From the IMG/VR virus record IMGVR_UViG_3300011114_000891, positions 1 to 28,556 of that record: 28,556 nt of DNA, one strand, 5' to 3'. Each line of letters starts with the position of its first letter. Within the stretch, counting starts at the first letter, position 1. Position numbers and translations under genes: made by a program. The DNA is from a virus. Shown here piece by piece: positions 2,454 to 28,177 of the stretch. A model generated the notes under the pieces. That model saw only the letters and a list, made by a program, of their open reading frames with translations. It did no database searches and was not told the origin of the DNA.

Positions 2454-3344
2454 TTACAGGGGAAACCCGTCGTCCTCGAACGGGACGACCTCGGGGGAGG
2501 GGGCGAACAGGGGCGCGGCGTCGATTGCCTCGACGAGCTGCGTCCGCGGCGGCGGGGGCGGTGCGGGGAGACGAGCGGCCGAGGAGGGCGACGGGGCCGC
2601 CGGTGGCGCGGGAGGGCGAACCTCGACGTGGTCAACCGTCGCAGTCGGAGCGGGGGCCGGTGCGGGCGGAGCTTCCGACCCGAACTCCGAGCGGTCGTCG
2701 GCGGCCAGTGCGTCCGAGAACTCGATCGAGCGGGGGAGGTACTTCGCCGCGCGGCGGAGGACGGTCTTCTTCCCCATCTCGGCGAAGTCGGTCGCCCAGG
2801 GGCCCGAGTTCCCCGACTGGGAGCGGCCGCGAATCGCTTGGACCTCGTGGAGGGGCATCCACTCGAACAGATGCTCGCCGCCGGTGAGGGTTGCATGGGT
2901 GTAGAACCCGAGGATCCGCGAGTCCTTGCGGCGGAGGTCGGGCTTGTGGACGAACGGAACCGCGGCCGAGTAGTCAACCTCGAAGGTGTCCGTCTCGTAA
3001 ACGACTCGCGAGGCGATGGAGGTCACCTTGCCCGAGCGGCGGATGAGGTCGAGAAGGCCTTGGTAGCCGATCAAGAACGTGGCCTCGCCCTTGCGGGGGA
3101 TAAGGTAGCACGACCCGAGGACTCCCGGCTCGAGGCCGAGCTGCGAGGCCGTCATGACGCACGCCATGATGGAGGCGGGCGTGCAGTCGGCGAGGCCGCG
3201 AACGGTGCGGAGCTGCGTCAACGCAAGGCGGGCCATGCGGTCGGGGGCGAAGTGCGACGGGAGGGCCGCCTTCAACTGGGAGAGGGTGGCGGGGGACGCC
3301 AACCAACCTTCTACGGAACTGTCTCTACGGGCGATCTGGGTCAT
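2454..3344 (-). CDS. recT: RecT-family single-strand annealing protein with SSB-like tail
   Basis: This 296-aa protein carries the RecT core: SQLGLEPGVLGSCYLIPRKG (about 67-86), ATFLIGYQGLLDLIRRSG (88-105), GPWATDFAEMGKKTVLRRAAKYLP (181-204). RecT proteins coat single-stranded DNA and promote annealing and strand exchange after a partner exonuclease resects ends; that partner is encoded just upstream. The start at 3344 was preferred over a frame extension to 3455 because the extension is low-complexity and reaches almost to the exonuclease stop. Unusually, residues 224-268 form an Ala/Pro linker, and the protein ends in an acidic-aromatic tip (VVPFEDDGFPL) that resembles the C-terminal peptide of bacterial SSB. 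No separate SSB gene is seen in the window. Family call is confident; the tail role is inference. Confidence 0.92.
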   Translation of the reverse strand: MTQIARRDSSVEGWLASPATLSQLKAALPSHFAPDRMARLALTQLRTVRGLADCTPASIMACVMTASQLGLEPGVLGSCYLIPRKGEATFLIGYQGLLDLIRRSGKVTSIASRVVYETDTFEVDYSAAVPFVHKPDLRRKDSRILGFYTHATLTGGEHLFEWMPLHEVQAIRGRSQSGNSGPWATDFAEMGKKTVLRRAAKYLPRSIEFSDALAADDRSEFGSEAPPAPAPAPTATVDHVEVRPPAPPAAPSPSSAARLPAPPPPPRTQLVEAIDAAPLFAPSPEVVPFEDDGFPL

Positions 3345-3418
3345 GACTCTCTCTAGGTGTGGTCTCTCGACCGTTGGGGGGAGGGGCGTAGCGCGGCCTC
3401 GAACCGCGCAGGGAGGGC

Positions 3419-4435
3419 CTAGCCCTTCTTGGCCTTGGGTGCGGTCACTCGGCACGACGCGGACACCTTGGTCGTCTTCTGGAACTGCGCGAGGAGCTCG
3501 GGGTGGGCCTCGCCAAACGCTTTAGAGTCGAACGAGACCCGCTCGGAAGCGTCCGAGAAGGAGGACTTGAACCCGCCCGCGGTGGCGAGCTTGGAGGCCG
3601 AGCGGTGCGCCTCGAGGATGACCCGCTTCGCTTCGTCCTGGCGTTCCTCCAAGGCTTTGATCTCGGAGTTGATCCGAGCGTAGGTCTCGATCGCCTCGGC
3701 CACCTCGCCGTCTACCTCGAGCGGACCCTCGCTTGCAGGGTTGATCGTCCGAGCAAGGGTCGAGAGGGCGTCCGCGTCGGTCGCCACTGGGAGAAGTTGG
3801 TCGGGGTGGTTCACCCAGGCGAACGCCGTCGACGCCGCCTCGTCGATGACCGCGAAGGCCTCGAGGTCGGGGTCGATGGGGATCAAATGGAAGGCGTAGA
3901 CGGTCCAAACTGCGAGGTAGCCCTTGTCGGCCCCGGTGACTCGGAGCTGCGTCTGGACTTGCCACCAATAGGCCAACCGAGCGTCGCGGCCGTCCAAGTG
4001 GGCGAACCCGTTGGTCAACACTTCCTCCCAGTCGAGGCGGGCTCGGTCGAGTTTGGCCTCGACGACTGCGACGACAACGCCCTGGTCGTCGATCACGAGA
4101 CCGTCGGGGGTGGCGGAGACGGGGACGAACTGATCGCGGACGGCGACACCGGCGACGACCTTCTGGCCGAGGAGCCCTTCCGCGTGTTGAAGGATGAAGT
4201 CCTCGGCGAGGCGGCCGAGGGCCATAGCGTCCGAGTCCCAGATCCGAGGGTTACCCGAGAGGGCGTCCCGCTTGTCGAGAACAAGGCCGAGAAGGCCGCC
4301 GTAGGGAGAGACGCCCAGGACGACGCCAATCTCGGAAGCTCCGATGGTCTCCGCTCGGGTGGCGTGCCACTCGTTGGAGTCCTTGGGGTAGGGGGCGACA
4401 GGGGTGCAGGATGCGAGGTAGGTATAGGGTTGCAT
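3419..4435 (-). CDS. YqaJ-type viral recombinase exonuclease
   Basis: This 338-aa protein matches the YqaJ/lambda-exonuclease-like PD-(D/E)xK nucleases that digest one strand of linear DNA to feed an annealing protein. Visible motifs are ETIGASEIGVVLGVSPYGG (29-47), MALGRLAEDFI with a conserved Glu near 78, SATPDGL with Asp 111, VVEAK with Glu 126 and Lys 128, and WWQVQTQLRVTG (157-168), the usual bridging segment. A charged helical region around 265-300 is likely coiled coil. The start at 4435 (MQPYTYLAS) lies 12 bp after the previous stop and just ahead of the domain; its ribosome site is weak. It sits 74 bp before the RecT-like gene, the standard two-gene pairing. Confidence 0.92.
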   Translation of the reverse strand: MQPYTYLASCTPVAPYPKDSNEWHATRAETIGASEIGVVLGVSPYGGLLGLVLDKRDALSGNPRIWDSDAMALGRLAEDFILQHAEGLLGQKVVAGVAVRDQFVPVSATPDGLVIDDQGVVVAVVEAKLDRARLDWEEVLTNGFAHLDGRDARLAYWWQVQTQLRVTGADKGYLAVWTVYAFHLIPIDPDLEAFAVIDEAASTAFAWVNHPDQLLPVATDADALSTLARTINPASEGPLEVDGEVAEAIETYARINSEIKALEERQDEAKRVILEAHRSASKLATAGGFKSSFSDASERVSFDSKAFGEAHPELLAQFQKTTKVSASCRVTAPKAKKG

Positions 4436-5242: not shown

Positions 5243-8044
5243 CTAGAACGGGTCGTCGGGGTACAGGCCGCCGCGGGGTTCATCCTTCCGTCGAGGCCCA
5301 TCGTTGGGCGCGACCTCGAACTCCGCGACCTGTTCGGACAGCTCGGTAGAGAGGACGAACGCCCGAACGTCGCCGCCGCCGATCCGGACCTTCCACGTCC
5401 TCCGGCGGTCGGGTGACTTCTCGAACCAACCCTTCTCGGAGATCGCCGCGATGACCGAGTCGACCGCGTACCCCCTCTCGCCAAGGAACCTCTCGACCTC
5501 GTGCGGGAGCATCGCAGCTCGGACCGTCCCGTCGTGCATCTTCCAGACCTTGCCGATCGTTGACAGGTTCGAGTCGGGGGTCGTCGCGTAGTATTGCACC
5601 CGCTTCTGGTTGGAGGCGAACCACGCGAGGAGGGCGTCCATCGCGAGAGAAGGCTTGTCGGCCTCCTTCGCCTGGTCAAACGTGGCGAACAGGTCGGCCG
5701 CCGAGAACAACCCGAACGGCCCCCGCTTCTCCCACTGAACTCCGACGAGCTCGCAGAACTTCGCCCAGGCGTACTCCATCGCCGCGACGTGGTTCGACAC
5801 CCGCCGAGTCGTATCCCGCGCGGCGTGGTCCTTCTTCGCGTATTCGTAGACGCGCACCGCGAGGTCGCGGTACTGGGCCGCGGCCTTCGCCTTGTCGCCC
5901 TCCGACAGCTCGACGAGTCGTTGGATGTAGGCCTGTCCCGCCGTCCCGTGGTTGCGGGAGTAGAACCCTGTCACCTCGTGGATCAAGTCGGAGGTCGCCG
6001 AGGAGTTGTCTCCGAAGATGGGGGCCTTGATCGAAACCAGTCGGGCGACCGTCCCCGCTTGCTTCCCCATGGTCGCGATCGACGACTCACCCGTCGAGAG
6101 GGCTATGTTCTGGAACTCGACCGTGGTCTGGGTCCCGGTCACTGTTCCCCGCGCCTTCCCTCGGCCTTGGGTCATCGCGTAGACGAAGGCGGAGACGACC
6201 CCGAAGTTGTCGATCATGTGCTGCGTCTCGTCGCGGAAGACTGGGAGGCCCCGCATCGAACCTGCGACCCTCTCGGTTGCAACCCCCGTGTCGTTCCACT
6301 GGCCGACGAGCGAGGCCGTCCCGAACACCGAGGCCGCCCACTTGAGGGAGGTCGACTTGCCACCCGACGAGTCTCCCCAGACGTCCAAAACGAACTGTTC
6401 GCACCCGATGACCTCGATCAACGGGGCGACGACCGCGGCGGCGTAGGCCAATGCAACCCGAGGGTGCAACCCGATCACCCGCTCCGTTGTCGCCCGCCAC
6501 TCGTCGAGAGACCCCCGAGCTCGAACGGCCTCGACCTTGGACCGCATCTCGCCCTCGAGCGGGGCCATGTGCAAGTCGGAGCTGCTACCGCTCGGAGAGT
6601 GGACTTCATCGTACCCTCGGACAAACGACCCGTCGACCCAACCCGTCGTCGGCGACAATCGAGAGAGGCCCGTCAAGGTCACCTCGGACAACTGCCGAGC
6701 GGCGTCGAGGTAGTCCACCATCGCCTTCGCCGAGTTGGAAGTGACTGGGAGGCCCTTCGCCGCAAGGCCGACGATTGTCCTGGTAGAGGCCACCGCCTCG
6801 AGCGGGACGTGAAGCATCCGAGACCCCAAGGCGGGCCAACCGGTGGCAAGGGTTACAAAGTGGGTCTGGGTCGCGATGTCGAGCGAACGGGCGACGAGGA
6901 ACACCGGCGGGAAACAGACCCGCACCTTGATCGGGCTCCCGTTGCGGTCAACCGCCTGTCGCGCGATCCCGCTCCCGTTGTCGAGCTCGTAGCCCTCGGG
7001 GAGTTGGACGGTCGACCCGTTGGAGAGTTTGGCGTGGAGGCCGCTCCGGTGGCCCGTTTCGACGGGGGGAGCATGGGGGCCGCTATCTTCGGTCTCCTCG
7101 GCGGGCTCCCCTGCCTCGATAGCCCCGCGGAGCTGTCGCCGCGCCTCTCCAATGCCGAGTCGCAGGGCGAGGTCGTTCCAGTCGGTCTCCTTCTCCCCGC
7201 GCCCCTCCCCAAACTCGGGGAGGACAACGAGGCCGCCCGTCTGGGTCGCCGCCTTCCGCGCAGCTCGTCGGCCGGGGTTGTCGTCTCGCTTCCAGTCGTC
7301 ATCGGCCGCGATCACCAGGAGGGCGTCTGGGAGGGCGTCCCGAACCTTGACGGCCACCGTTGCGAGCTGCGAGGTATCCATCGCGCAAAGGACCGTCCAA
7401 CCCGTCGCCTCGGCGATCGTCGCCCCTGTCGCGTACCCCTCGCAGACTGCGACGACCTCACGCGAGCCGGGGATGCGGTGGTAGGTCCCCGCTCGGTCCA
7501 TCCCCTTGGCGTACATTTTGGCCGCTCCCTCTCGGGCGGGGATGCGTTGGAACCCTCGCAGGTCGTTTGGGCCGCGGGAGAGGGGAACGAGTAGGTCACC
7601 GTCCGAGTTCATCCGAACCCCCCACGCCTTGACCCCCTTCCGCGCAAGGTAGGGGTGCGCGGGGTCGGCCTCGACCGCCGCCGCCCAGACCTCCCGCGAC
7701 TTCTTCGCCGCCTCCTCGCGGGTCGCGGCCAGTTCGGCGTCCGCGCCCTCCTTCTCCCGACGAGCTCGCTCGAGGTTGCCTAGGTACTCCTCTCGCCCTG
7801 TCCGCTCCTCGGCCTTGATCGCCGCCCAGTCCTCGTCCGGACAGACCCACGCGATGGGGTCACCCGACCAACGACGGAACAGGCCCCGAGGCTTGCCGTT
7901 GGAGGTGTAGCGGTAGCAACCCTTCCCGCCGCCCTCGAGCGGGACCGTGTGCCACTTGTCGTCGTCCTCGACTCCTCGAGGGAATGTCAACCCGAGCGAC
8001 TCCGCCTCCCGACGGAACCGCGCCTCTGCGTCTGCGCGACCCAT
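5243..8044 (-). CDS. Toprim primase fused to DUF927-type helicase
   Basis: This 933-aa protein combines two activities that start and drive replication. Residues 1-75 are a small N-terminal domain. A Toprim catalytic core follows: VAVCEGYATGATIAEATGW (198-216, Glu 202), VIAADDD (244-250), and the ETDWND signature (286-291). Residues about 335-540 match DUF927-type helicase N-termini (TGWPALGSRM, TLTGLSRLSPTTGWVDGSF). The ATPase has Walker A GDSSGGKST (557-565), Walker B-like PVFRDETQ (601-608), sensor ALSTGES (649-654) and an arginine in GTVARLVSI. The C-terminal 150 residues look like a winged helix. The start at 8044 has AAGGAG 6 bases upstream. It faces the repeat-rich spacer, consistent with a replication protein acting at a nearby origin. 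Domain order is typical of phage and plasmid primase-helicases. Confidence 0.92.
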   Translation of the reverse strand: MGRADAEARFRREAESLGLTFPRGVEDDDKWHTVPLEGGGKGCYRYTSNGKPRGLFRRWSGDPIAWVCPDEDWAAIKAEERTGREEYLGNLERARREKEGADAELAATREEAAKKSREVWAAAVEADPAHPYLARKGVKAWGVRMNSDGDLLVPLSRGPNDLRGFQRIPAREGAAKMYAKGMDRAGTYHRIPGSREVVAVCEGYATGATIAEATGWTVLCAMDTSQLATVAVKVRDALPDALLVIAADDDWKRDDNPGRRAARKAATQTGGLVVLPEFGEGRGEKETDWNDLALRLGIGEARRQLRGAIEAGEPAEETEDSGPHAPPVETGHRSGLHAKLSNGSTVQLPEGYELDNGSGIARQAVDRNGSPIKVRVCFPPVFLVARSLDIATQTHFVTLATGWPALGSRMLHVPLEAVASTRTIVGLAAKGLPVTSNSAKAMVDYLDAARQLSEVTLTGLSRLSPTTGWVDGSFVRGYDEVHSPSGSSSDLHMAPLEGEMRSKVEAVRARGSLDEWRATTERVIGLHPRVALAYAAAVVAPLIEVIGCEQFVLDVWGDSSGGKSTSLKWAASVFGTASLVGQWNDTGVATERVAGSMRGLPVFRDETQHMIDNFGVVSAFVYAMTQGRGKARGTVTGTQTTVEFQNIALSTGESSIATMGKQAGTVARLVSIKAPIFGDNSSATSDLIHEVTGFYSRNHGTAGQAYIQRLVELSEGDKAKAAAQYRDLAVRVYEYAKKDHAARDTTRRVSNHVAAMEYAWAKFCELVGVQWEKRGPFGLFSAADLFATFDQAKEADKPSLAMDALLAWFASNQKRVQYYATTPDSNLSTIGKVWKMHDGTVRAAMLPHEVERFLGERGYAVDSVIAAISEKGWFEKSPDRRRTWKVRIGGGDVRAFVLSTELSEQVAEFEVAPNDGPRRKDEPRGGLYPDDPF

Positions 8045-8123
8045 GCTCTCTCCTTGCCATTCGCGGGAGGTTGCAGTAGCATCCTCTCCACCTGGTTGTC
8101 GCGGCCTTGCTCGCCGCCCGACC

Positions 8124-8153
8124 TCTATCGCCGATCCGAAGGGGGCTTGTCAA
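8124..8153 (-). promoter_or_regulatory. Promoter candidate for the primase-helicase
   Basis: On the minus strand a perfect TTGACA (8153-8148) is followed after 18 bases by GATAGA. The predicted start of transcription would leave a leader of roughly 70 bases before ATG 8044. The -10 element is weak, so confidence rests mainly on the -35 box and the position. Confidence 0.42.
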
Positions 8154-8168
8154 CCTTCCGGCGATCCT

Positions 8169-8212
8169 CCCTCTCTCGACCTCTCCGTTGCGCGGCTCGG
8201 GTCGGGAGAGGG
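8169..8212. other. Long inverted repeat (13-bp stem)
   Basis: CCCTCTCTCGACC at 8169-8181 pairs with GGTCGGGAGAGGG at 8200-8212 with one mismatch and an 18-base loop. It lies just upstream of the -35 box for the primase gene and beside the repeat array. There is no T-tract on either side, so it is not an intrinsic terminator; an operator or a structured origin element fits better. Confidence 0.55.
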
Positions 8213-8375
8213 AACCTGCGCCCAGTTCGGACCCCCTCGAGCTGTTCCCGCCTGTTCCCGCTCTGTTCCCACTGGGCGGGAACGCCTCGCGGCCAGTATC
8301 TACGCGCCTCCGCGCCTCGTTTTGGAGCCTGTTCCCACTGTTCCCGCCCTAGGACACCCCCTACGGCGTCGACCT

Positions 8376-8391
8376 ATGCGCGTACGCGCAT
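8376..8391. other. Perfect 16-bp palindrome
   Basis: ATGCGCGTACGCGCAT reads the same on both strands. It lies in the middle of the control region, between a forward pair of the 9-mer repeats (8330-8347) and an inverted pair (8432-8449), so it sits close to the symmetry centre of that arrangement. A dimeric protein site or a hairpin used in initiation are both possible. Confidence 0.7.
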
Positions 8392-8464
8392 CTGCGCCCG
8401 CGCGTCGTGGGCCCGCGCACGTATAGGGAGAGTGGGAACAGTGGGAACTTGTGGAACATAATGA

Positions 8465-8480
8465 TTACAAGGGCTTGCAA
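8465..8480. other. Short dyad in AT-rich patch
   Basis: TTACAAG at 8465-8471 and CTTGCAA at 8474-8480 form an inverted repeat with one mismatch and a 2-base centre, in the most AT-rich part of the control region. It could be an operator half-site pair. A second dyad, ACGGTC (8561-8566) and GACCGT (8574-8579), lies about 50 bp upstream of the late-arm promoter candidate. Confidence 0.4.
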
Positions 8481-8626
8481 GGCGGTTTTTGTTCCCATGG
8501 GGTGGGAGAAGTTGGGAACACTTTGGGTAGTTTGCGCCAAGTCGCCCGAAAGTGACGCAGACGGTCAAGAATCGACCGTTTCGAGTCTGGCGTTCCCACT
8601 GTTCCCGCGTGGTCTGGGCGTTCCCC

Positions 8627-8656
8627 TTGACGCTCCCCCTCTCGTGGGGTTAGGTT
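8627..8656 (+). promoter_or_regulatory. Promoter candidate for the late arm
   Basis: TTGACG at 8627-8632 is followed after 18 bases by TAGGTT (8651-8656), about 45 bases before the small-terminase start. The -35 box is good and the -10 is poor. The last degenerate copy of the 9-mer repeat runs into the -35 box, so the repeat-binding factor could regulate this promoter. Confidence 0.4.
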
Positions 8657-8700: not shown

Positions 8701-9177
8701 ATGGCAACCAAACCGACCAAACCGACCAAGTCGACACCGCCGAACACGTCGAAGCTCGCCCCCGAGGTCATCGATCGGATCTGCGAGGGCGTCGCACTGG
8801 GCCTCCCCTACGAGCGGGCCTGTCTCCTCGGAGGCATCCGCCGCGAGACTCTCCACGCCTGGAAGAACGCCGCCCCCAACACTCCGGAGGGGTCTCTCCA
8901 CCGCGAGCTCGTGACCCGCCTCGAGGAGGCCCACGCGAAGGGACAGGCGGAGCTCCTCGACCAGATGAAGGGACACGCCCGCGGGACCCGCCTGGAGAAC
9001 GGGGCCGAGGTACAGACTCGCGGGGAGTGGAAGGCGACCCAGTGGCTCCTCGAGTCGATCTACAAGATGCGCCCCGAGGCGAAGGTGGACGTGACCTCGG
9101 GGGGCGAGCCGATCAAGTACGTGGTCTCCATCCCTCGCGTTGAACGCATCTCGGACGCCGCCGACGACGAGGGCTAG
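8701..9177 (+). CDS. terS: Terminase small subunit
   Basis: The 158-aa product is read from ATG 8701 with GAGG 6 bases upstream. It has a short Lys/Thr/Pro N-terminal tail (MATKPTKPTKST) and then a helix-turn-helix (about 20-57: VIDRICEGVALGLPYERACLLGGIRRETLHAW), the usual DNA-recognition part of small terminases. Residues 65-115 are helical, fitting the oligomerisation core. Small terminase selects viral DNA and loads the large subunit for packaging. The stop TAG abuts the GTG of the large subunit. The identity rests on the HTH plus its invariant position before the large terminase. Confidence 0.85.
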   Translation: MATKPTKPTKSTPPNTSKLAPEVIDRICEGVALGLPYERACLLGGIRRETLHAWKNAAPNTPEGSLHRELVTRLEEAHAKGQAELLDQMKGHARGTRLENGAEVQTRGEWKATQWLLESIYKMRPEAKVDVTSGGEPIKYVVSIPRVERISDAADDEG

Positions 9178-10437
9178 GTGGCAACCGTCCCCCTCGAGCT
9201 CCCCGCCCTCTACGGCCGCCAACACGACGCGATCACTGACCCTCGGCGGATTGTGTGCATCGAGTCGACGACCAAGGCCGGGAAGACCTTGGGTTGCATT
9301 GTGTGGCAGATCGGCCAAATGATGGGGGCCGGGGAGGACACCGAGCATTGGTGGGTCGCGCCCGTCTACGAACAGTCCATGATGGCCTACCGCCTCGCGT
9401 GGTCCCTCCTGCGGGGCCAACCGGGGTTCGCCCAGGCGAAGGCCGAGAAGGCGATCACGGGGCCGGGGAACCGCCGGTGGAGCTTCCGCTCGGCCGACAA
9501 CGCCGACTCGCTCTACGGGTCGGCCGTCCATTCTCTCGTCCTGGATGAATGTTCTCGGATGAAGGACGACGCCGTCGACGCTTGCTTCTCGACGACAACC
9601 CGAACTCGAGGTCGGATCCGGTGCATCGGCAACGTCCGAGGTCGGGCGAACCGCCACTACCAGTTCTCGCGCAAGGGTGAGTCGGGCGAGGAGGGGTTCG
9701 GGTACCATCGGATCACGGCCGACGACGCGGTGGCGGCGGGTATCTTCTCCCGCTCCGACCTCGCCATGGCCCAACGCACCCTCCCCGAGGCGGTCTTCCG
9801 CGAGCTCTACTACTGCGAGCCCGCCGACGACGGGGCGAACCCCTTTGGTATCGACGCGATTCGGAACTGCGCGGAGCTGTGCAACGGGAAGGCCTCGGGC
9901 GACTCGGTCCGGGTCTGGGGTCTCGACATCGCCCGCAAGCGCGACTGGGCGGTCCTTGTCGGCCTCGACGGTCACCGGCGGGTCGCTCGGTTTCACCGGT
10001 GGCATGGTCTCTCGTATGGGGCCCTCGTCGAGGAGGTCGTGCGCCTGGTCGGTCGCGGGTCGAAGGCGTGCGTCTTTTTCGACGCGACTGGGGTCGGCGA
10101 CGCGGTCGGCGAACAGATCGCCGCGGCTCGGGTGTGGTGTGAGCCCTTCATCTTCTCCTCGGCCTCGAAACAGGGAATCATGGAGGGGCTCGCCCTCGCC
10201 CTCCAACAGGGGCGGACGACGGTCCTCGACGGAGTCCACCGCGCGGAGCTCGAGGCGTTCGAATACGACGTCAAGGCGGGTCGGGTAGTCTACGGGGCCC
10301 CGTCGGGGTCGCATGATGATACTGTTTGCGCCCACGCCCTCGCGTGGTATGGGGCGGAGAAACTAGGGGTCCGACCTGCGGGCCGCGTCGCCGTCCTTGG
10401 GACTGCGACTGTGACAAAGGGTGCGACAACATGGTGA
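9178..10437 (+). CDS. terL: Terminase large subunit (packaging ATPase and nuclease)
   Basis: This 419-aa protein packs DNA into the prohead. It starts with GTG immediately after the terS stop, with GAGG in the last codons of terS. The ATPase shows a Walker A variant STTKAGKT (30-37), Walker B LVLDEC (120-125) and a coupling-like segment RIRCIGNVRGRANRHY (147-161). The RNase H-like nuclease shows VWGLDIARKRDWAVLVGLD (Asp 250), ACVFFDATGVGDAVGE (Asp 302) and GSHDDTVCAHALAW (Asp 380/381), the three acidic clusters needed to cut DNA. Length is normal for the compact type. Its last 7 bases overlap the portal start. Confidence 0.95.
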   Translation: MATVPLELPALYGRQHDAITDPRRIVCIESTTKAGKTLGCIVWQIGQMMGAGEDTEHWWVAPVYEQSMMAYRLAWSLLRGQPGFAQAKAEKAITGPGNRRWSFRSADNADSLYGSAVHSLVLDECSRMKDDAVDACFSTTTRTRGRIRCIGNVRGRANRHYQFSRKGESGEEGFGYHRITADDAVAAGIFSRSDLAMAQRTLPEAVFRELYYCEPADDGANPFGIDAIRNCAELCNGKASGDSVRVWGLDIARKRDWAVLVGLDGHRRVARFHRWHGLSYGALVEEVVRLVGRGSKACVFFDATGVGDAVGEQIAAARVWCEPFIFSSASKQGIMEGLALALQQGRTTVLDGVHRAELEAFEYDVKAGRVVYGAPSGSHDDTVCAHALAWYGAEKLGVRPAGRVAVLGTATVTKGATTW

Positions 10438-13250
10438 GAGGACCGATCCTAGACTCCCAGGGCCGGGTAATCCCGACCGCCCAGGTGACCGAGCGTACCA
10501 ACCTCATTGGAGCTCGCAACTACCGCGGCGGCCTCCCAGACGCGGACGCCAACCTCTCGTTCATCCCGTCCGAGCGGCGGGGTATCGCGGGCTTGCAGGG
10601 CAAGTTCCAGGAGATGATGCAGACCCACGTCGGTATCGCCTCGGCGGTCTACTGGGCGATCACGGAGGGCGCGGCCCTCCCGAAGGAGATCGTCTGGCCG
10701 CACCGCCACGAGCCGGGGGTCGAGGAGAAGGCCTTCATGGACCTCTGTCAAACGGCGTGCATTGACGACGCGGTCGTCTACGACGGCATGGTCGAGGGCG
10801 AGGTCGCACTGTGGGCCTACCCGCTCCTCGACGCCTTCATGGGGTTTGGCCTCATGTTCCCTCGTATGCTCACCGGCGGCTCGGTCGAGTGGTACCCAGT
10901 GGCGCACAACGCGATTATGCTCTGGAAACCGAACGGCTACTTGTTTGGCGGGGCGCGGTTCTCGACCCCGAACGGCTACGATGACCTCGACGCCGACCAG
11001 CTCGTCCACACCGTCCACGGGTTCGCGGGCGCGGGCGAGTTCGAGGGCCGGTCGATCCTCCGCGACTGCGTCCAACCGTTCGAGCTCTGGAAACAGATCG
11101 CGATCAACGCGGGCGTCTACAACCAACTCGCGTGGGGTTTCCTCGACATCGCCTACGAGCCTTCGGTGGGCGAGGCGGACGTGGCGGCCTTCAACGAGTT
11201 CGGCCAACAGTTCCAGGACGGCCAACGCAAGTACATCCTCCGCCCGCAGTCGGTCGCGGTGGAGATGAAGTACCCGAGCGGGTCACCCCCGGACGTGGTC
11301 TCGCAACTCGAGTACTGGGACCGACAGATCGAGAAGAAGTTGAACGCCCCCCTCGCGGGGATCACGCAGTTTGGGTCGCGTGCCATGGCCGAGACCCTCG
11401 ACGGGGCGCAAGGTCGCAAGGCGAAGGCGTGGATCAACGGTATCTTCGATCGACAGTCTCGGGGGATGTTCCGTTGGTTGGCGAACCAAGTCGGATACGA
11501 GGGGCGGCTCCCCAAGATGCAGGTGCAATCGGCCGAACTCACGACTGGGTTCGACGGTTGGGCGGCCTACGTCAACGGCATCCAGGCGGGCCTCCTAACC
11601 CGCGGCCCCGACGACGAGAAGTGGGCGCGTCGGGTCATCGGGGCCCCCGAGCTCCCCGTCGAGGTAGTGGCCGACCTCCCCGAGCCGGTGGGCGCGTCGA
11701 CGGCGGCGACTGCAACGACGGTCCTCGGTATGCTCTCCCCGAACTCGGCGACGCCTCTCGCCCCCGAGGCGGCGGTCATCCTTCTGACGATCTCGGGTCT
11801 CGCCGAACCAGTGGCGCGACAACTCGTTGACGCCCAGACGCGCCTCTCTCTCGTGGCCCCTGTCGCGGTAGAGGGAGCGGCGGCGGTCCCAGTGGCAACG
11901 GCCGAGGGCGTTCCCGCAGACGCGGTCCCGCAGGTCGTCCTCGAGGGGAACGTGGAGGTCCCGGCGGCGATCGGAGAGGCGTCGGCCTTCGCTCCGATCT
12001 CCCCTTCGCTCTCGGCGTCGGAGGCCTCGAGCATCGCGGCGGCACTGGGCGAACACCCCGAGGTTATCGTCCCCGACAATGTCATGGCGGCGGCGGCGGC
12101 GGCTATCCTCGCCCACCGAATCGCGGGCAAGTCTCGGACGACTGACTCCGAGGCCCTCATGATTGCTCGCGACCTTGCGGCGGGCAAGCGGCTTGCGTGG
12201 TCTCGGGTCCTCGGCCTTGCGGACTACTTCTCGAAGGTCTACCCGCGCCACTCGGCGTCCAAGTCCTTCGCGGACGGCGGCCCCTCCTTCCACGCCTACG
12301 CCTTGCGAGGCGGCGACGCGGCTCGAGGTTGGGTGCGTTCGCTTCTGGTAGGGTACGCTACCCGCGCCCACCGGACGGCGTCGACCTTGGGCGAGCTCGG
12401 CGGCGACCTCGGAGATGGAGAAGGGGAAGGGGTCCTCGTCATTGGCGGCGACGGCCGCGAGTTCACGACCTACCGCGAACTCCGACCCGAGGAGACGGTC
12501 GTCGGTTGGGTCACCCTCGCGGAGACTCGGAACGACCTCGACGCGCAGCTCGCGTTGAAGATCGACGAGATCGCAGGTCGTCATCGCCTCGCAGTGATCG
12601 GCGGCCTTGCCGACGGTTGGCAAGCGGGGGAGCGGGATCGGATCTGGGCGACCTACGTCGCGGAGTACCAGGCGGCGTTGACGTCGGCGGCCGGTGGCCT
12701 CCGCTCGGCGACCGAGGCCGAGGTGACCGACGAGATCAAGCGGTCGGTCCGTTCGGGTGCGGCGGCGGGTGCGACTACCTCGGCGGAGTCCGCGCAGCTC
12801 GCGGCGGCGGCGTCGACGGCGGCCAACGCCCAGTTCGCCACGGCGGCGGCGGCGACGCAGAAGGCAGGGGAGGTCATCGCGGACAGGGTACAGGGTGAAG
12901 TCGAGGCGGCGATCCTAGCGGGCGGCGACCTCGACAACTTCGCGACTCGGATCACGGTGGCCGGTCTCGTCAAGGAGGCGGCGGGCTCGCGTAACATGGT
13001 GGCCTCGGCCTCTCGTATGGCCTCCTATGCGGCGGCTCCGGGTGCGAACCTTCCAGTCCCGAACGAGGTCATCCGGACCTCCATCCCCGACGCTAACCGG
13101 TGCGAGGTGTGCGCCGAGGCGGACGGGAACCGCTACGACGTGGCCTCGTTCGTTGTCGGCGGCCAGTTGAAGCTCCCGCCGCTCCCCGACCCGAACTGCG
13201 AGGGCCGCTCTGATTGCCGGTGCGGTTACATCGGGGTCTACAAGCGGTGA
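10431..13250 (+). CDS. Portal protein fused to extra middle domain and MuF-like C-terminus
   Basis: At 939 aa this is about twice the size of ordinary portals. Residues 1-475 are a DUF935/Mu gp29-type portal: the N-terminal GPILDSQGRVIP, then EGRSILRDCVQPFELWKQ (205-222) and WDRQIEKKLNAPLAGITQFGSRAMAETL (296-323). The portal forms the ring through which DNA enters the head. Residues about 543-640 look like a separate small domain found in other phage structural proteins (RDLAAGKRL, then LADYFSKVYPRH, then RGGDAARGWV). Residues about 700-939 are helical and end in the MuF Cys motif: CEVC (891-894), PNCEGRSDCRC (921-931). MuF-like proteins are minor head proteins. The start at 10431 fits a 7-bp overlap with terL and AAAGG upstream. 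Fusion order follows the separate gene order in Mu. Confidence 0.88.
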   Translation: MVRGPILDSQGRVIPTAQVTERTNLIGARNYRGGLPDADANLSFIPSERRGIAGLQGKFQEMMQTHVGIASAVYWAITEGAALPKEIVWPHRHEPGVEEKAFMDLCQTACIDDAVVYDGMVEGEVALWAYPLLDAFMGFGLMFPRMLTGGSVEWYPVAHNAIMLWKPNGYLFGGARFSTPNGYDDLDADQLVHTVHGFAGAGEFEGRSILRDCVQPFELWKQIAINAGVYNQLAWGFLDIAYEPSVGEADVAAFNEFGQQFQDGQRKYILRPQSVAVEMKYPSGSPPDVVSQLEYWDRQIEKKLNAPLAGITQFGSRAMAETLDGAQGRKAKAWINGIFDRQSRGMFRWLANQVGYEGRLPKMQVQSAELTTGFDGWAAYVNGIQAGLLTRGPDDEKWARRVIGAPELPVEVVADLPEPVGASTAATATTVLGMLSPNSATPLAPEAAVILLTISGLAEPVARQLVDAQTRLSLVAPVAVEGAAAVPVATAEGVPADAVPQVVLEGNVEVPAAIGEASAFAPISPSLSASEASSIAAALGEHPEVIVPDNVMAAAAAAILAHRIAGKSRTTDSEALMIARDLAAGKRLAWSRVLGLADYFSKVYPRHSASKSFADGGPSFHAYALRGGDAARGWVRSLLVGYATRAHRTASTLGELGGDLGDGEGEGVLVIGGDGREFTTYRELRPEETVVGWVTLAETRNDLDAQLALKIDEIAGRHRLAVIGGLADGWQAGERDRIWATYVAEYQAALTSAAGGLRSATEAEVTDEIKRSVRSGAAAGATTSAESAQLAAAASTAANAQFATAAAATQKAGEVIADRVQGEVEAAILAGGDLDNFATRITVAGLVKEAAGSRNMVASASRMASYAAAPGANLPVPNEVIRTSIPDANRCEVCAEADGNRYDVASFVVGGQLKLPPLPDPNCEGRSDCRCGYIGVYKR

Positions 13251-13507
13251 GACTTGCACCGGTCGCAGTCGCAGTCGGCGAGGGCGTACTTCGCCGGGGC
13301 CGTCCCCGACCCCTTCTCGACGTGGAGGATAGCCCCCGCCTCGAGGAGTCGCACGAGCTCGGCGCGAACGGCGGCGGGGGAGGTCCCCATGGGCCACTCG
13401 GTAGCCCGAACGAGGAGGCCCCCAAGGTGCGGCGGAGATGGGTGGAACTCGAGGCGGTGACACTGGGTCAAAAGATCGAGAAGGATCCGTTGTCGTCGGG
13501 TTAGCAT
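13238..13507 (-). CDS. Small winged-helix-like regulator on opposite strand
   Basis: This 89-aa gene is the only one facing the other way in the late arm. Its sequence reads as a winged helix: RILLDLLTQ, then GTSPAAVRAELVRLLEAGAI (41-60), then HVEKGSGTAPAKYALAD as the wing. A Cys cluster (CDCDRC) closes the protein. Such folds bind DNA and usually regulate transcription. The start at 13507 has only a weak AGG site. Its 3' end overlaps the portal gene's 3' end by 13 bp, and its start faces a CTAG-rich spacer shared with the protease gene. A moron-like insertion or a late-gene regulator are both possible. Confidence 0.7.
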   Translation of the reverse strand: MLTRRQRILLDLLTQCHRLEFHPSPPHLGGLLVRATEWPMGTSPAAVRAELVRLLEAGAILHVEKGSGTAPAKYALADCDCDRCKSHRL

Positions 13508-13603
13508 GGGGAGGCCTGTCGATAGGGGTGCGGGTAGTGCGCCGAAACGAACGCTAGCGGCACCCCTAGCGGCCTCCGAGGGCTAGGCAAGGGGGCTAGC
13601 AAG
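13508..13603. promoter_or_regulatory. Spacer with four CTAG-centred sites; possible operator
   Basis: This 96-bp divergent spacer holds CTAG at 13554, 13566, 13583 and 13596, within GCTAGC or CCTAGC contexts, two of which (CCTAGC at 13565-13570 and GCTAGG at 13582-13587) can pair as a hairpin. No clear sigma70 promoter is visible on either strand. The arrangement next to a DNA-binding gene suggests an operator, by inference only. Confidence 0.4.
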
Positions 13604-14854
13604 GTGCAATCTCGGCCCATGCGTTACTCCCGCCCCAAAATGCGAACAGTGGCCGTCGACCTCGGCGACGACTCCGGCCTCCGGTGGGTCTCCCTCATCC
13701 CTCGCGGCGTGATCAACGCCCACGGGATGAAGTGGGACTTCGACGCCGAGGAGACCAACCCCGACGAGCTGCGGTTCCGTTGGGAGGACGCGGTCGAGTC
13801 GGTCCAACGTTGGCTCCTCTCGTTCGCGCCCCCGGTTGCGATCGAACACGACAAGAACGGGACGGCCGCGGGGTACCTCCGCCGAGTCGTCACCCTGTCG
13901 CAGTCGGAGGCGGCGGCCCATGGCATCGCCCAACCCTCCTCGGAGATGCTCTACGGCGGTCTCGACCTCACCTCCCCGAAGTGGGCGGCGGCGTTTGACG
14001 ACGGCGAGATCCCCTACGTCTCTCCGAACATCCGCGCCTGGGCGGGAACGGAGCTCGACGAGGCCCCGGTCTACCCGTTTGCGATCGGCGAGGTCTCGTT
14101 TGTGACCATACCCCAGATCAAAGCCCAACAGGTCCCCGTCGCGGAGATGCGCGGGGTCTCTCTCTCCGAAGGTGACCCGATGAAGATGTCCATGGAAGAA
14201 TGTGCCGCCTACTGCGCGGAGAACGGCATGGATGAGGCCGCGATCGCGGCCTTGATCTCCAAGCTGTTCCCCGAGCTTCACAACGCCGCCCACGCGGCGA
14301 ACCCCGAGCTCGCGGACGAGGCCCCCGAGGCCGACCCCGAGGCCCTCGAGGGCGCGGCTCTGGAGCTCCAGAAGGCCGCCCAGGAGATCGAGGAGAAGAA
14401 GGTCGAGGAGGACGCTATGCTCTCCGAGGTGAAGCGTCTCAAGTCGGACCTGTCGGCCGCACGTCGCGCGGTCGCCCTGGCGAACGTCAAGGTCGCCCTC
14501 GGCAACCGCAAGGTCTCCGCCCAGACCGAGTCCATGCTCGCCGACGCCTTCATCGTTGGCGGTGGCAAGTTTGAGGCCCTTCTGAAGGACCTCTCGACTC
14601 CGGCCCCGCGCCCCTCGGCCCCTCTCGCTCGCACGATCGCCCCGATGGGCCGCAACTCGGCGGAGGTCACCCTCTCGGAGGTCATGGGCCGCCCCGAGAA
14701 GTTCGCGACCCTGTCGGAGGATACCCAGTGGAAGTTGATCACCGAGCTCTCCGCGAAGGAGAACTGCCACCCCGCCTTCGCCGCCTCGTGGATCACGTTC
14801 GGCGAGACCCCCGCCACTGTCATCGAGACCCGCGCCACTAAGGGCCGGTTCTAA
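13604..14854 (+). CDS. Prohead protease/scaffold (Mu gpI-like)
   Basis: This 416-aa protein resembles Mu-type protease-scaffold proteins, which act inside the assembling prohead and mature it. Residues about 12-185 form the protease part: KWDFDAEETN, PPVAIEHDKNGTAAGYL (His 82), EIPYVSPNIRAWA (Ser 140) and IGEVSFVTIPQIKA near 161-173. His 82 and Ser 140 are the candidate catalytic residues. Residues about 230-300 are a charged coiled coil (AAQEIEEKKVEEDAMLSEVK), fitting the scaffold, followed by a helical C-terminus. The GTG at 13604 is chosen because AAGGGGG lies 8 bases before it; ATGs at 13619 and 13640 lack a spaced site. It precedes the capsid genes as expected. Confidence 0.82.
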   Translation: MQSRPMRYSRPKMRTVAVDLGDDSGLRWVSLIPRGVINAHGMKWDFDAEETNPDELRFRWEDAVESVQRWLLSFAPPVAIEHDKNGTAAGYLRRVVTLSQSEAAAHGIAQPSSEMLYGGLDLTSPKWAAAFDDGEIPYVSPNIRAWAGTELDEAPVYPFAIGEVSFVTIPQIKAQQVPVAEMRGVSLSEGDPMKMSMEECAAYCAENGMDEAAIAALISKLFPELHNAAHAANPELADEAPEADPEALEGAALELQKAAQEIEEKKVEEDAMLSEVKRLKSDLSAARRAVALANVKVALGNRKVSAQTESMLADAFIVGGGKFEALLKDLSTPAPRPSAPLARTIAPMGRNSAEVTLSEVMGRPEKFATLSEDTQWKLITELSAKENCHPAFAASWITFGETPATVIETRATKGRF

Positions 14855-14897
14855 CCCATTCAACCCACCCACGCCCCTCGCGGGCTAGGAGCAACTC

Positions 14898-15347
14898 ATG
14901 GCCTTTGGATACGTCACCTACAAGAACTTCGCTCCGGTCAACCTGATCGCGAGCAACCTCACGAACTCGGAAGGTTGCGGCCTCTATCTCGACGCCGAGG
15001 GTCTCGTTGCTCTCGCGGAGAAGACGAGCGACATCCCCTACGCGATCGTCGCGGTCGGTACCGACTCGATCACTCCGGGCACCTACCCCTCGGCCCCCGT
15101 CGCGGGCTCGCTCGAGGTCATCGACCAGCTCGGCGTCGCCGTACAGGTCCGCGCCTCGGACGGGGGTAGCATCTCTGCGGGCGACCTCATCGCAATTGAC
15201 GAGACCGCCTCGGAGAAGGGCTCGTTCAAGATGCATAGCCCGGCCGACGGCGACTACATTTGGGGTATGGCCCTCACCGGTTGCGCGGCCGACGAGCAGT
15301 TCATCCTCCGTTTCGCGCCGTACCTCGTGGTCGTCCCCGCCCCGTAA
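14898..15347 (+). CDS. Putative head decoration protein
   Basis: A 149-aa, beta-rich, Gly/Ala-rich protein starts at ATG 14898 with TAGGAG 7 bases upstream. The pattern (EGLVALAEKTSDIPYAIV, AVQVRASDGGSISAGDLIA, FILRFAPYLVVVPAP) is like the small DUF2190-type capsid cement proteins that sit between protease and major capsid genes and stabilise the expanded shell. The assignment depends mainly on position and size. No Cys cluster, membrane span or catalytic motif is visible. Confidence 0.65.
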   Translation: MAFGYVTYKNFAPVNLIASNLTNSEGCGLYLDAEGLVALAEKTSDIPYAIVAVGTDSITPGTYPSAPVAGSLEVIDQLGVAVQVRASDGGSISAGDLIAIDETASEKGSFKMHSPADGDYIWGMALTGCAADEQFILRFAPYLVVVPAP

Positions 15348-15388
15348 CCCAACCGCGCCTCCGCGCCCCTTTTTGATCGAGGTAGCCT

Positions 15389-16405
15389 ATGTCCTTCGCT
15401 TTCCCCTCAACTGGCGTCAACTCCGGCGCGTTGCGTCCTGGAATCCTTCAACGGATCTCCCTCTACCGTGGCGGCTCGGACTCGGCGGTCTCGCTCGAGC
15501 TCTCCCCGATCGTCAAGGTCATGACGCGGGCCGGTTTCTACCACTACTTCGCCGAGAACGACGCCCTCGTCACCAACGGCGCGCAGGGCATCAAGCCGAT
15601 CGAGCTTGACACCCCCGCCGTCCCGGGTGGCCTTCGCATCGCGAGCGGCTCCTACAACTCCTCGGTCTACCGTTGGGGCCACCAGGTCTTCACGCTCAAG
15701 CAGATCCAGGAGTTCGCGGCTCGCGCCGAGGACATCACGGCGGTCTTCGCGATGAAGCTCCAGACGCAGGGTGCACAGCATCACGCGGCGGTCGTCGGTT
15801 CGGCCCTCTCGACGCAGGGCAACTACGCCTCGGGCCTCTCGGTCCCGAACGGTAGCGCGGCCTCGGCCGAGTTGCAGTCGACGTTCAACTCGCTCCTCCT
15901 CGCCTCGGCCGCCGACGGCGCGGACATTTTTACGGGTCGTTGGGTTGCGGTGTGTAACCTCAACACGGCGAACGCCCTTCTCCAGAAGAACGAAGTGCAG
16001 CAGATGGGCTACTCCATCGCGGCGGCCTCGGTCTCGGGTTCGCTCGCCCAGGTCCGCACCGGCGCGGCCGATTGGTCGCAGCTCAAGGCGTTCTTCGCCT
16101 CGAAGCTGATCTGCCCGGTCGACTTCGTTTGCCTCCCGCAGTTCCTCCCCACTGCGGCGTCGCAGACGGGTACTCCGGTCATGAACGACGGCCTCGTCTC
16201 GATCTTCAAAGTGGCCGAGGCGAACGGCGACTCGGGGTTCATCCAGACGTTCACCCCCGACCCGAACGCGGCCCTCGGACAGGTCATCTCCTACGACTCG
16301 CAGAACCCCCGCGGTATCGCGATGTATATCGAGTCCGACTACGCGGTCCAGGTCCTCGGCGGCACCTCGAACAAGTGGGCCCGCTACGCCTACGACATCT
16401 CCTAA
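15389..16405 (+). CDS. Major capsid protein
   Basis: The 338-aa product follows the protease and decoration genes and is the right size for an HK97-fold shell subunit. The start at 15389 has GAGG 6 bases upstream. Sequence features expected of that fold are present but diffuse: a helical spine-like segment (TLKQIQEFAARAEDITAVFAMKLQ, about 102-125), a central domain with WVAVCNLNTANALLQK, and a C-terminal strand region (RGIAMYIESDYAVQVLGG). There is no long N-terminal delta domain, which agrees with a separate protease/scaffold. Identity is by gene order and size. A hairpin follows the gene. Confidence 0.78.
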   Translation: MSFAFPSTGVNSGALRPGILQRISLYRGGSDSAVSLELSPIVKVMTRAGFYHYFAENDALVTNGAQGIKPIELDTPAVPGGLRIASGSYNSSVYRWGHQVFTLKQIQEFAARAEDITAVFAMKLQTQGAQHHAAVVGSALSTQGNYASGLSVPNGSAASAELQSTFNSLLLASAADGADIFTGRWVAVCNLNTANALLQKNEVQQMGYSIAAASVSGSLAQVRTGAADWSQLKAFFASKLICPVDFVCLPQFLPTAASQTGTPVMNDGLVSIFKVAEANGDSGFIQTFTPDPNAALGQVISYDSQNPRGIAMYIESDYAVQVLGGTSNKWARYAYDIS

Positions 16406-16415
16406 CGGAGCTCTA

Positions 16416-16439
16416 GGGGCCGCTCTACGGGGCGGCCTC
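16416..16439 (+). terminator. Hairpin after capsid gene; weak terminator candidate
   Basis: GGGGCCGC at 16416-16423 pairs with GCGGCCTC at 16432-16439 (one G-T pair, 8-base loop), 11 bp after the capsid stop. There is no T-tract, so full intrinsic termination is unlikely; it may protect or attenuate the transcript and so raise capsid over downstream genes. The 92-bp spacer also holds CTAG at 16413, 16452 and 16473. Confidence 0.35.
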
Positions 16440-16497
16440 CCTCGACGGGGGCTAGGGTCCTACCCCTCCGCTCTAGTCCCCTTCAAGGGAGGCAACC

Positions 16498-16980
16498 ATG
16501 GCCGAGATCTTCACCTTCGACGTAGTGCCCGCAGACATCGGGCGTCTCCTCCCACGGATCGCCTTCTCGACGGACTCCGCTCCGACGCAGTTACAGGCCG
16601 AGGACATCATCCTCGACTGGGGCGCGGAGCTGTCGGCGTTCCTCGAGGGGATGGGGGTCGCCGTCAAGGCGGTCAACGATCACCCGACCTACGCCCTCTA
16701 CCGGGTGTGCCAACGGTACGTCCTCCTCCGGTTCGCCGCGCAGGTGATCCGCCTTCGCAACCAGAACGACCAGACCATGGCCGACCGCCTCGACGCCCAG
16801 GCGGACGGGTTGAAGGACGTCCTACGGAAGACACCGGCGGACATGGGGGCGCAACGCCCGAACGGTCCGAACTCGCCGAACATCCTCCGCTCGAACGCGA
16901 CCTATGCGGCGGAGATCTACCTCAAGTCACTGAACTCTCGGTCGAGGGTAGCGATCAACGCCGCCGTCGATCGGATGTAA
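16498..16980 (+). CDS. Putative head-tail connector (adaptor)
   Basis: A 160-aa mostly helical protein starts at ATG 16498 with a strong AAGGGAGG site. Position right after the major capsid gene, size, and helical pattern (EDIILDWGAELSAFLEGMG, YVLLRFAAQVIRLRNQNDQ) fit the adaptor that binds under the portal and seals the DNA-filled head. The last 45 residues include a flexible segment (AQRPNGPNSPN) and a helical end. No specific family motif is recognised, so the call rests on context. Confidence 0.6.
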   Translation: MAEIFTFDVVPADIGRLLPRIAFSTDSAPTQLQAEDIILDWGAELSAFLEGMGVAVKAVNDHPTYALYRVCQRYVLLRFAAQVIRLRNQNDQTMADRLDAQADGLKDVLRKTPADMGAQRPNGPNSPNILRSNATYAAEIYLKSLNSRSRVAINAAVDRM

Positions 16981-16990
16981 TCGAGGCCGT

Positions 16991-17632
16991 ATGTTCCTCA
17001 CCCTCAAGAACAACGCCCAGGACGGGGTCGAGGCCCTCGAGCTCGCGATTCGCAACGCGGGCGATTGGTCGAAGTTCTGGGGCAACCGGAACTCGCCCCT
17101 CTCGCGGGTCTGGGCGCGGTCGCGCCAAGAAATGTTCCTCACCCAAGGTGCGTCGACGGGTTCGACGTGGCCTCGGTACACCTACGCCGAGAAAAAATAC
17201 TGGCTCCCGATCAAGCGGTGGGCCTTGGGTACCAAGCGGATCGAGGCGCGGCACATCCTGCGGTGGGAGAAGTCGCCGGGGCGAGCTGCGGGGTCGGGGG
17301 AGCGTCTCTACCCGTCGTTCGCGATGGTCAACCACCCCGAGTACGTCTGGGAGGTCCGCGGGAACTCGGTCGTCATGGGCTCGGACGTGCCCTACGCCGC
17401 GAACCACAACTCGGGGACAGGGGCCTACGTCCGCCGCACGAGTAGGAACCAGAAGGGGGTCGCCTCGGTCCCCACTCCCAAGCGTCCCCTCGTCAACTTC
17501 GGCGAGCCCTTCATCGCAGATCTCCGCTACGCATTGGGCGTGCAAGCGTCGGCCATGGGTGGTAAAGTGGGTATCCTCGACTCCGAGTTCGCTCGGAGGT
17601 TCGCCCTCAACGGTGGGAAGATCGGACTGTGA
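16991..17632 (+). CDS. Mu gpG-like virion morphogenesis protein
   Basis: The 213-aa product starts at ATG 16991, 10 bp after the previous stop, with GAGG 5 bases upstream. An N-terminal helical part with two Trp-rich turns is followed by a beta-rich half with VPYAANHNSGTG and then PKRPLVNFGE, the pattern seen in Mu gpG-type head-completion proteins and their siphovirus relatives (an H-N-x-G followed by a P-x-R-x-L/F motif). These work in the neck between head and tail. Its TGA overlaps the next gene's GTG, so translation is likely coupled. Confidence 0.68.
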   Translation: MFLTLKNNAQDGVEALELAIRNAGDWSKFWGNRNSPLSRVWARSRQEMFLTQGASTGSTWPRYTYAEKKYWLPIKRWALGTKRIEARHILRWEKSPGRAAGSGERLYPSFAMVNHPEYVWEVRGNSVVMGSDVPYAANHNSGTGAYVRRTSRNQKGVASVPTPKRPLVNFGEPFIADLRYALGVQASAMGGKVGILDSEFARRFALNGGKIGL

Positions 17633-18261
17633 GTAACCCCTCGACAAGCTACGGCCCCCAGATCGTCGCCAACACGGCGATCGACCTTGTGGTGGCGAAC
17701 TGGGCGACCGTCTGCGACGCCGCCTGGTTGAAGGCCATGGGTGCGCCTGGTCTCCCCGCTCCCGTGGCGGGGAACTGTTTCACGTCTCGTCGGGCCCTGT
17801 TCACCGCGGAGAAGCAACCGGCGATCGGGCTCTCGGTCGTTCGGACGGACTCGGTCGTAACCGACGCCCTCGGAGCGATGGATCAAGTCCACGAGCTCGA
17901 GATCGCGGTGACCTCCGACTGGGGGTTCTACGACGCCTACGGGGTGCATCCTCTCGTGGAGGCGGCCGAGGGCGACCCTGCGATCCCGTTTACCCAAGAA
18001 ACCTACGAGACGGCCCTCCGCGCCTACGTCGAAGGGATTGTGTTGATCCTCACCTCTCCCGTATGGGGGTTCCCGAACCTCGACGCCCGCAACCGGTTTA
18101 CCCCGAACTGGCCGGGGACGGGGATCTACAACTCGAGCCCCTTCTCGGGGGTGACGCCGCAAGATTTTGTGATCGGTACCGACGAGACCGGTCAGACTGT
18201 GATCCAACAGACCGTCCGCGCGTCGATCCAAGTTTACCAACGCCGCTCCCTCGCAAGGTGA
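17629..18261 (+). CDS. Putative tail terminator/completion protein
   Basis: A 210-aa protein begins at GTG 17629, within a GTGA overlap, with GGGAAG about 9 bases before. It has no recognised motif. Features are a segment WLKAMGAPGLPAPVAGNCF, a beta stretch IGLSVVRTDSVV, and a C-terminal strand pair ending VIQQTVRASIQVYQRRSLAR. In siphovirus gene order the gene directly before the tail tube usually encodes the tail terminator or a neck protein, and the mixed alpha/beta content agrees. The specific role is inferred from position. Confidence 0.55.
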   Translation: MSNPSTSYGPQIVANTAIDLVVANWATVCDAAWLKAMGAPGLPAPVAGNCFTSRRALFTAEKQPAIGLSVVRTDSVVTDALGAMDQVHELEIAVTSDWGFYDAYGVHPLVEAAEGDPAIPFTQETYETALRAYVEGIVLILTSPVWGFPNLDARNRFTPNWPGTGIYNSSPFSGVTPQDFVIGTDETGQTVIQQTVRASIQVYQRRSLAR

Positions 18262-18265
18262 CCTT

Positions 18266-19360: not shown

Positions 19361-19402
19361 CCCGTTCCCACCACTACCCCGAACCGCAAAGGAGGGGCCG
19401 CT

Positions 19403-20121: not shown

Positions 20122-20125
20122 CCCC

Positions 20126-21931: not shown

Positions 21932-21940
21932 GATCAACCA

Positions 21941-25308: not shown

Positions 25309-25309
25309 A

Positions 25310-27186: not shown

Positions 27187-27214
27187 TCCCCTCACCCTCC
27201 GCTTGGAGCTCCCA

Positions 27215-27589: not shown

Positions 27590-27590
27590 G

Positions 27591-28169: not shown

Positions 28170-28177
28170 GATCCCCC

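Follow-up and report, generated by a model that had tools for sequence, protein, structure and literature searches.

The dense array of short repeats at positions 8243-8627 of the window (the whole 28,556-base stretch of viral DNA analysed here) is best explained as a replication origin of the SaPI/PICI type in an uncultured tailed phage, where it would fire in vivo. We consider it very probable that this array is the phage's replication origin and that its iterons are bound by the C-terminal winged helix of the adjacent Toprim-DUF927 primase-helicase (P0001). The array, its conservation, its family-wide association with the helicase gene and the covariation between helicase residues and iteron bases were obtained by computation. 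Iteron binding by the helicase's own C-terminal domain is proposed here from strong covariation and a fold match.

The array comprises about 14 iteron copies in total, the core of which reads TGGGAACA. The 28,556 bases contain seven exact matches to TGTTCCCRC, every one of them within 8243-8608 (six on the plus and one on the minus strand). When one mismatch was allowed 22 copies were found across the window, of which the 12 inside 8243-8608 comprise the seven exact and five one-mismatch copies, and two weaker copies, TGTGGAACA at 8450 and CGTTCCCCT at 8619, lengthen the array. The core GTTCCC is present 44 times in the window with 13 copies packed into 385 bp, and this is the densest hexamer cluster of the window, other independent hexamers reaching at most seven copies per 385 bp. 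The copies are arranged in tandem groups in both orientations with a spacing of 9-12 bp within clusters. The first-pass annotation had described a dense two-orientation array of this 9-mer beside the primase-helicase gene, with tandem copies and few occurrences elsewhere, and this description holds. Against shuffled sequence, as it had proposed, the window-wide one-mismatch count is marginal (22 observed against 14.7 expected, with 22 or more in 3 of 100 shuffles); the clustering is far from chance, and the signal of the array is therefore its clustering.

From left to right, cluster A (8243..8272, plus strand; one-mismatch scan) consists of tandem TGTTCCCGC, TGTTCCCGC and TGTTCCCAC starting at 8243, 8253 and 8264 (spacing 10 and 11 bp), and is followed by the inverted iteron CGTTCCCGC (8276..8284, minus strand). 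Cluster B (8330..8347, plus strand; motif scan and alignment of relatives) is the tandem pair TGTTCCCAC-TGTTCCCGC with a period of 9 bp. Cluster C (8432..8458, minus strand) has the same period and holds the inverted pair TGTTCCCAC and AGTTCCCAC together with the degenerate TGTGGAACA at 8450. Single iterons follow at 8490..8498 (TGTTCCCAT, plus strand) and 8512..8520 (TGTTCCCAA, minus strand), and cluster D (8591..8608, plus strand) is the tandem pair CGTTCCCAC-TGTTCCCGC. The rightmost copy is the degenerate CGTTCCCCT (8619..8627, plus strand), which overlaps TTGACG (8627-8632), a possible -35 element of a rightward promoter. Amid the clusters lies a relatively A+T-rich stretch (8421..8500; 53-55% AT compared to 34% overall) that is a candidate melting site. 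The short iterons thus flank an A+T-rich stretch in opposed orientations as in SaPI/PICI origins, its A+T-richness being modest.

Five IMG/VR contigs (L008-L012) encode a P0001 homolog with 81-95% identity, and in each of them 13-15 GTTCCC copies lie within 900 bp on the 5' side of the gene. When the intergenic regions of the window and these five relatives are aligned, several iteron cores stand out as invariant islands between diverged spacers. Two to four copies of cluster A are retained, GGGAAC of the inverted iteron at 8276..8284 is invariant across the five, and the iteron at 8490..8498 is conserved. The right-hand copies (8512-8608) are gone from L009-L012, which have differently placed copies instead, and among the relatives only L008 keeps the iteron at 8512..8520. 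The array is hence present beside the primase-helicase gene in all five relatives although the flanking DNA has diverged. The first-pass annotation had named equal density elsewhere in the genome, or absence next to the primase-helicase of homologous phages, as grounds for rejecting its interpretation, and neither was found. The block CCCTAGGACACCCCCTA (8347-8364), which adjoins cluster B and is not an iteron, is invariant in all five as well.

The P0001 gene (5243..8044, minus strand) encodes 933 amino acids with Toprim_3, DUF927 (MCM-like AAA+) and, at the C-terminus, winged-helix HTH_56 domains. Beyond it, to the left of the array and on the minus strand, RecE-like, RecT-like and Holliday-resolvase-like genes come next. 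To the right, on the plus strand, are the genes of the small (8701..9177; outside the origin) and large terminase subunits, and the window also has a long rightward late-like gene block. The terminase genes had PHROG matches at an E-value of 0.001; ten large ORFs that read rightward in the late-like region (10326-28423) had none at this threshold, and this phage seems to have highly divergent virion proteins. A 14-nt inverted repeat (TCCCTCTCTCGACC/GGTCGGGAGAGGGA) at 8168-8213, whose surroundings are almost invariant in the five relatives, may form a hairpin in the leader of the primase transcript. An RNA element was rejected, the window being without an Rfam match. The cumulative GC skew that the first-pass annotation had suggested computing was of no help, with a weak local change near 9 kb that is confounded by the divergent genes and no clear origin signal.

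P0001 belongs to the DUF927 (Cch/SaPIbov1 Rep-like) family with a PF06048 score of 130.9 bits (cut-off 22.6). HTH_56 scored 30.9 bits for the isolated domain (cut-off 26.2) and 25.6 bits, just under the cut-off, for the whole protein. The winged-helix domain (residues 784-905; 5330..5695, minus strand) is the proposed iteron reader. In an AlphaFold model of moderate confidence (mean pLDDT about 78) K885 is located in the first beta-wing strand (884-888) and R881 just before it. The best solved relatives of the whole protein, both by sequence and by fold, were SaPIbov1 Rep (8tch) and SCCmec Cch (5dgk). For the isolated domain the best folds were SaPIbov1 Rep (TM 0.75) and then the TcpK-oriT complex (about 0.7, normalized by TcpK), and the sequence profile of the domain also retrieved TcpK (E-value 0.0066).

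The association of array and gene extends to distant relatives. A scan of IMG/VR for TGTTCCCRCTGTTCCC returned at least 119 loci, and about 45 of these, among the matches listed, carry dense arrays (contig GC 38-67%). Among the matches listed, a DUF927 gene was found at 33 of 51 dense GTTCCC loci (L008-L012 counted in), mostly within about 250 bp, compared to 1 of 67 loci with the 16-mer pattern but without a dense array. Protein searches blind to the motif, although with queries taken from motif-bearing loci, yielded 239 DUF927 loci; sub-family alignments were used because the family-wide alignment of 23 sequences was too diverse for locus searches. Within 700 bp on the 3' side of the gene, 75% of 147 non-redundant DUF927 loci contained some 7-mer at least five times and 61% contained one at least seven times. 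The corresponding shares among 2320 control windows were 4% and 0.6%, and five or more copies were seen in 1% of upstream windows. At about 25% of the 147 loci no array was seen within 700 bp. Most distant DUF927 genes are thus adjoined by a 7-9 bp two-orientation repeat, nearly always 3', and the array-bearing loci come from hosts as distant as Streptomyces and Gammaproteobacteria. The iteron sequence varies between DUF927 lineages (TGGGAACA, TGGTAACA, GGTGTAACA, GTGGTTACA, AGGCGTAAGG and others), dense GTTCCC clusters of the TGGGAACA type being a minority (23 of 239 loci), and an orientation layout such as +++-++--+-- recurs with different iterons. L134 carries GTGGTTACA and L158 TGGTAACA, and the domains of L134 and L136 (iteron GTGGGAACA) are distinguished by only a few wing positions. 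The 5' position of the array is restricted to the window's own clade, and all other scored arrays are 3' of the DUF927 gene.

Several individual loci are of interest in their own right. Two small plasmids, of Streptomyces virginiae (L372) and Geobacillus (pSJEF4-2-2, L373), have GGGGAAC 14 times and TGTCACA 16 times, respectively, directly 3' of the DUF927 gene, and both arrays are likely unannotated plasmid origins. In Thermoanaerobacterium phage THSA-485A (L374) and Faecalibacterium phage FP_Epona (L375) the primase/helicase gene is followed on its 3' side by ten or eleven iterons that lack annotation, and an unusually long array of 23 iteron-like sites (refined motif) lies 3' of a split primase/helicase pair at 3263-3644 and beyond in L039. 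A coding-repeat artefact applies to a single locus, L069, where the repeat encodes a protein repeat.

To relate iteron sequence to the protein, the iteron was written a-G-X-N-A-C and the protein columns were screened for covariation with a and X. Screening by columns was required, since identity in 40-column blocks differed only weakly between same- and different-iteron pairs (+0.05, C-terminal). The same wing position headed the ranking for X, alone or tied, in two families aligned separately (K817 of L292, z 5.8; K850 of L132, z 4.2). In one family a position four residues before it ranked first for another base (z 7.2). In the joint alignment with clustering at 80% column 0 ranked first of 412 for the third G (X=G; Fisher p 7e-10), with K/R in 21 of 25 clusters with X=G and in 3 of 38 without. 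Column -4 likewise ranked first of 412 for the first G (a=G; p 2e-9), with R in 33 of 43 clusters with a=G and in none of the 20 without. Both columns kept first rank with clustering at 60%. In P0001 they correspond to K885 (column 0; codon 5390..5392, minus strand), covarying with the third G of GGGAAC, and R881 (column -4; codon 5402..5404, minus strand), covarying with the first.

Simple p-values of this kind are inflated by phylogeny because a similar protein and a similar array can be co-inherited. A tree of 94 tips was built from the helicase core, leaving the winged helix out, and this test lowers, but does not abolish, that inflation. For column 0 there were 16 iteron changes and 14 residue changes, 11 of them on a shared branch compared to 1.2 expected. 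For column -4 six changes fell on the same branch compared to 1.7 expected (P 0.003). Exceptions to the code were 8 of 94 tips at column 0 and 13 of 94 at column -4. The code columns were picked by the scan and then checked on held-out loci; clades found by the DNA motif could show only G. The loci outside the covariation scan fit the code: P0001 itself (R881/K885), L239 and L240 (R/K) and L052 (R/R), and so does the Streptomyces plasmid with the GGGGAAC array (R/K).

The co-crystal of TcpK with DNA is independent support for the wing code from a published structure. TcpK of the conjugative plasmid pCW3 on oriT (5vfx) resembles the P0001 domain in its winged-helix fold, and arginines of TcpK align with both code positions, the profile alignment placing R71 at -4 and R75 at 0 (numbering by matching E69-N73 of the paper to the aligned EDRFN). 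It binds AAGGAACTTTACAGGGAACTTTA with its beta-wing in the major groove, and its tandem boxes contain GGGAAC (PMC6137059). The box of this oriT is a 9-nt tandem repeat whose second copy plus linker reads GGGAAC, as does the iteron of the window. In the co-crystal R71 contacts the CAG linker at its last G, the base with which GGGAAC begins, and the change from CAG to CAA leaves about 25% of binding (PMC6137059). Binding was lost in a quadruple mutant including R75A, where the effect of R75 is mixed with those of three other substitutions (PMC6137059). Whereas the P0001 domain belongs to a helicase and would act at a replication origin, TcpK is a small dimer of the relaxosome and functions in conjugation. 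For P0001 we propose from the sequence comparisons that R881 and K885 in the wing help to set its specificity for GGG.

The first-pass annotation knew of no named system with this repeat, which is too strong a statement, as the kind of origin is known in SaPIs and PICIs (PMC6092414, PMC7581432). The literal repeat was not found in the literature searched, which lacks most subscription journals, and its novelty is thus unproven. SaPI/PICI Rep and SCCmec Cch2 bind iterons through their own C-terminal domain (PMC7581432, PMC6092414), and two hexamers are proposed to load head to head at opposed repeats (PMC9894130). The SaPI/PICI replicon (SaPIbov1, EcCICFT073; Rep or Pri-Rep) has a self-loading helicase that carries a C-terminal DNA-binding domain, as proposed for P0001, and at its origin by the gene, like in the window, sets of short iterons facing in opposite directions surround an A+T-rich stretch (PMC6092414, PMC7581432, PMC9894130). 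In the EcCICFT073 origin region we counted 11 GGTAGA copies in both orientations. The window differs in having its own terminase genes and another iteron sequence, and its array, as in the close relatives, is 5' of the gene and not immediately 3' as in SaPI/PICI origins. A PICI identity of the element was rejected on the basis of its own small and large terminase genes and the 5' array, and by content, with these terminase genes and the long rightward late-like block, the window is not a satellite. SCCmec Cch (DUF927, MCM-like helicase; 5dgk) shares the DUF927 and HTH_56 domains with P0001, and Cch2 binds repeats adjoining its own gene through its C-terminal domain (PMC7581432). Cch2 belongs to another helicase family and has an AAGTG iteron, whereas P0001 adds the Toprim primase and is phage-borne. 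A primase-helicase fusion reading short GG..ACA-like iterons (ori/crr) near its gene is also found in the alpha protein of satellite phage P4, which is of a different helicase family from P0001, the likeness lying in this general description.

Instead of serving as an origin, the array might mainly act as a master operator that regulates divergent early (primase) and late (terminase) promoters through the primase-helicase or a separate repressor. The array fills the divergent intergenic region, its degenerate last copy touches TTGACG, and with a 5' array in the window's clade only, a bound helicase could also control the primase promoter there. The promoters themselves are weakly supported. 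The promoter and terminator scan returned one weak promoter-like site, outside the array, and zero terminators. The late promoter candidate that the first-pass annotation had placed at the last copy consists only of TTGACG with a poor -10 and was missed by the consensus scan. TTGACA at 8148-8153 (minus strand), on the primase side of the array and kept in the relatives, is a candidate leftward -35 without a good -10 and was likewise not picked up. Nearly all arrays of the relatives are 3' of the gene, and control of the helicase promoter is therefore unlikely in them; moreover, the residue covariation points to the helicase and not to a separate repressor. We consider regulation as the main function of the array unlikely, while an added operator role is possible because the array sits between divergent promoters.

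An origin bound by another initiator, a host or other phage protein that merely recruits the helicase, is highly improbable. The iteron core is shared with loci of VapE and DUF5906 helicases, which could be due to a host factor common to them. Against this, iteron and wing residues change together between close relatives, the arrays occur in hosts as far apart as Streptomyces and Gammaproteobacteria, and the domain resembles TcpK, in which the residues at the aligned places bind GGGAAC. The GTGGGAACA two-orientation arrays beside VapE-like/DUF5906 helicases (L119 5829-6073, L023 2852-3166, L086 1064-1376) may reflect shared or convergent iteron recognition. Packaging initiation by the small terminase subunit (8701-9177) at a cos/pac site in the array has hardly any probability, for although its gene is less than 100 bp away and a few GTTCCC arrays elsewhere have a large terminase gene nearby (contigs of L056, L061, L088), the arrays track the DUF927 gene and not the terminase gene throughout the family, are also found in plasmids (L372, L373), and covary with residues of the helicase. 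The three arrays near large terminase genes are at 5623-5795 (L056), 2379-2682 (L061) and 8053-8188 (L088); a DUF927 gene is present elsewhere in the L056 contig and none was found in the L061 and L088 contigs. Both of these explanations were rejected as the main one because the arrays track the DUF927 gene and show covariation with the wing of its product.

The possibility that these are origin iterons bound by the primase-helicase, which the first-pass annotation had listed among others, is strongly supported by the association of gene and array, the residue-base covariation and the fold matches. Counting against it are the 5' position of the array, the quarter of non-redundant DUF927 loci at which no array was seen, the exceptions to the code, the flat GC-skew result and the arrays beside other helicases or terminase genes. 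At such an origin the winged-helix domain of P0001 would bind the TGGGAACA iterons in both orientations around the A+T-rich stretch. By analogy with SaPI Rep, the bound monomers may then build two oppositely oriented hexamers, which would open the stretch at 8421-8500, its presumed role in melting, and unwind in both directions, with the Toprim part of P0001 probably providing the primers.

More generally, it is rather likely that each DUF927 replicative helicase, whether of a phage, a satellite or a plasmid, recognizes an iteron private to it by a beta-wing code that can evolve, in which R at -4 reads the first G and K/R at 0 the third. Arrays of about ten or more iterons would have been rewritten in their entirety, in step with the wing residues, under a layout that stayed fixed. 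Concerted rewriting perhaps keeps related elements in one host from firing each other's origins. For the phage of the window, a probable replication origin was placed to about 400 bp by sequence alone, and the protein and two residues that should read it could be named. The family, with over 200 relatives compared, supplies more than a hundred pairs of initiator and iteron that follow a testable rule linking residue to base, a rule backed by the published co-crystal of a distant relative, and the co-evolution of specificity between self-loading initiators and their iteron arrays becomes directly testable. The SaPI/PICI style of origin is hereby extended to terminase-bearing phages and to plasmids.
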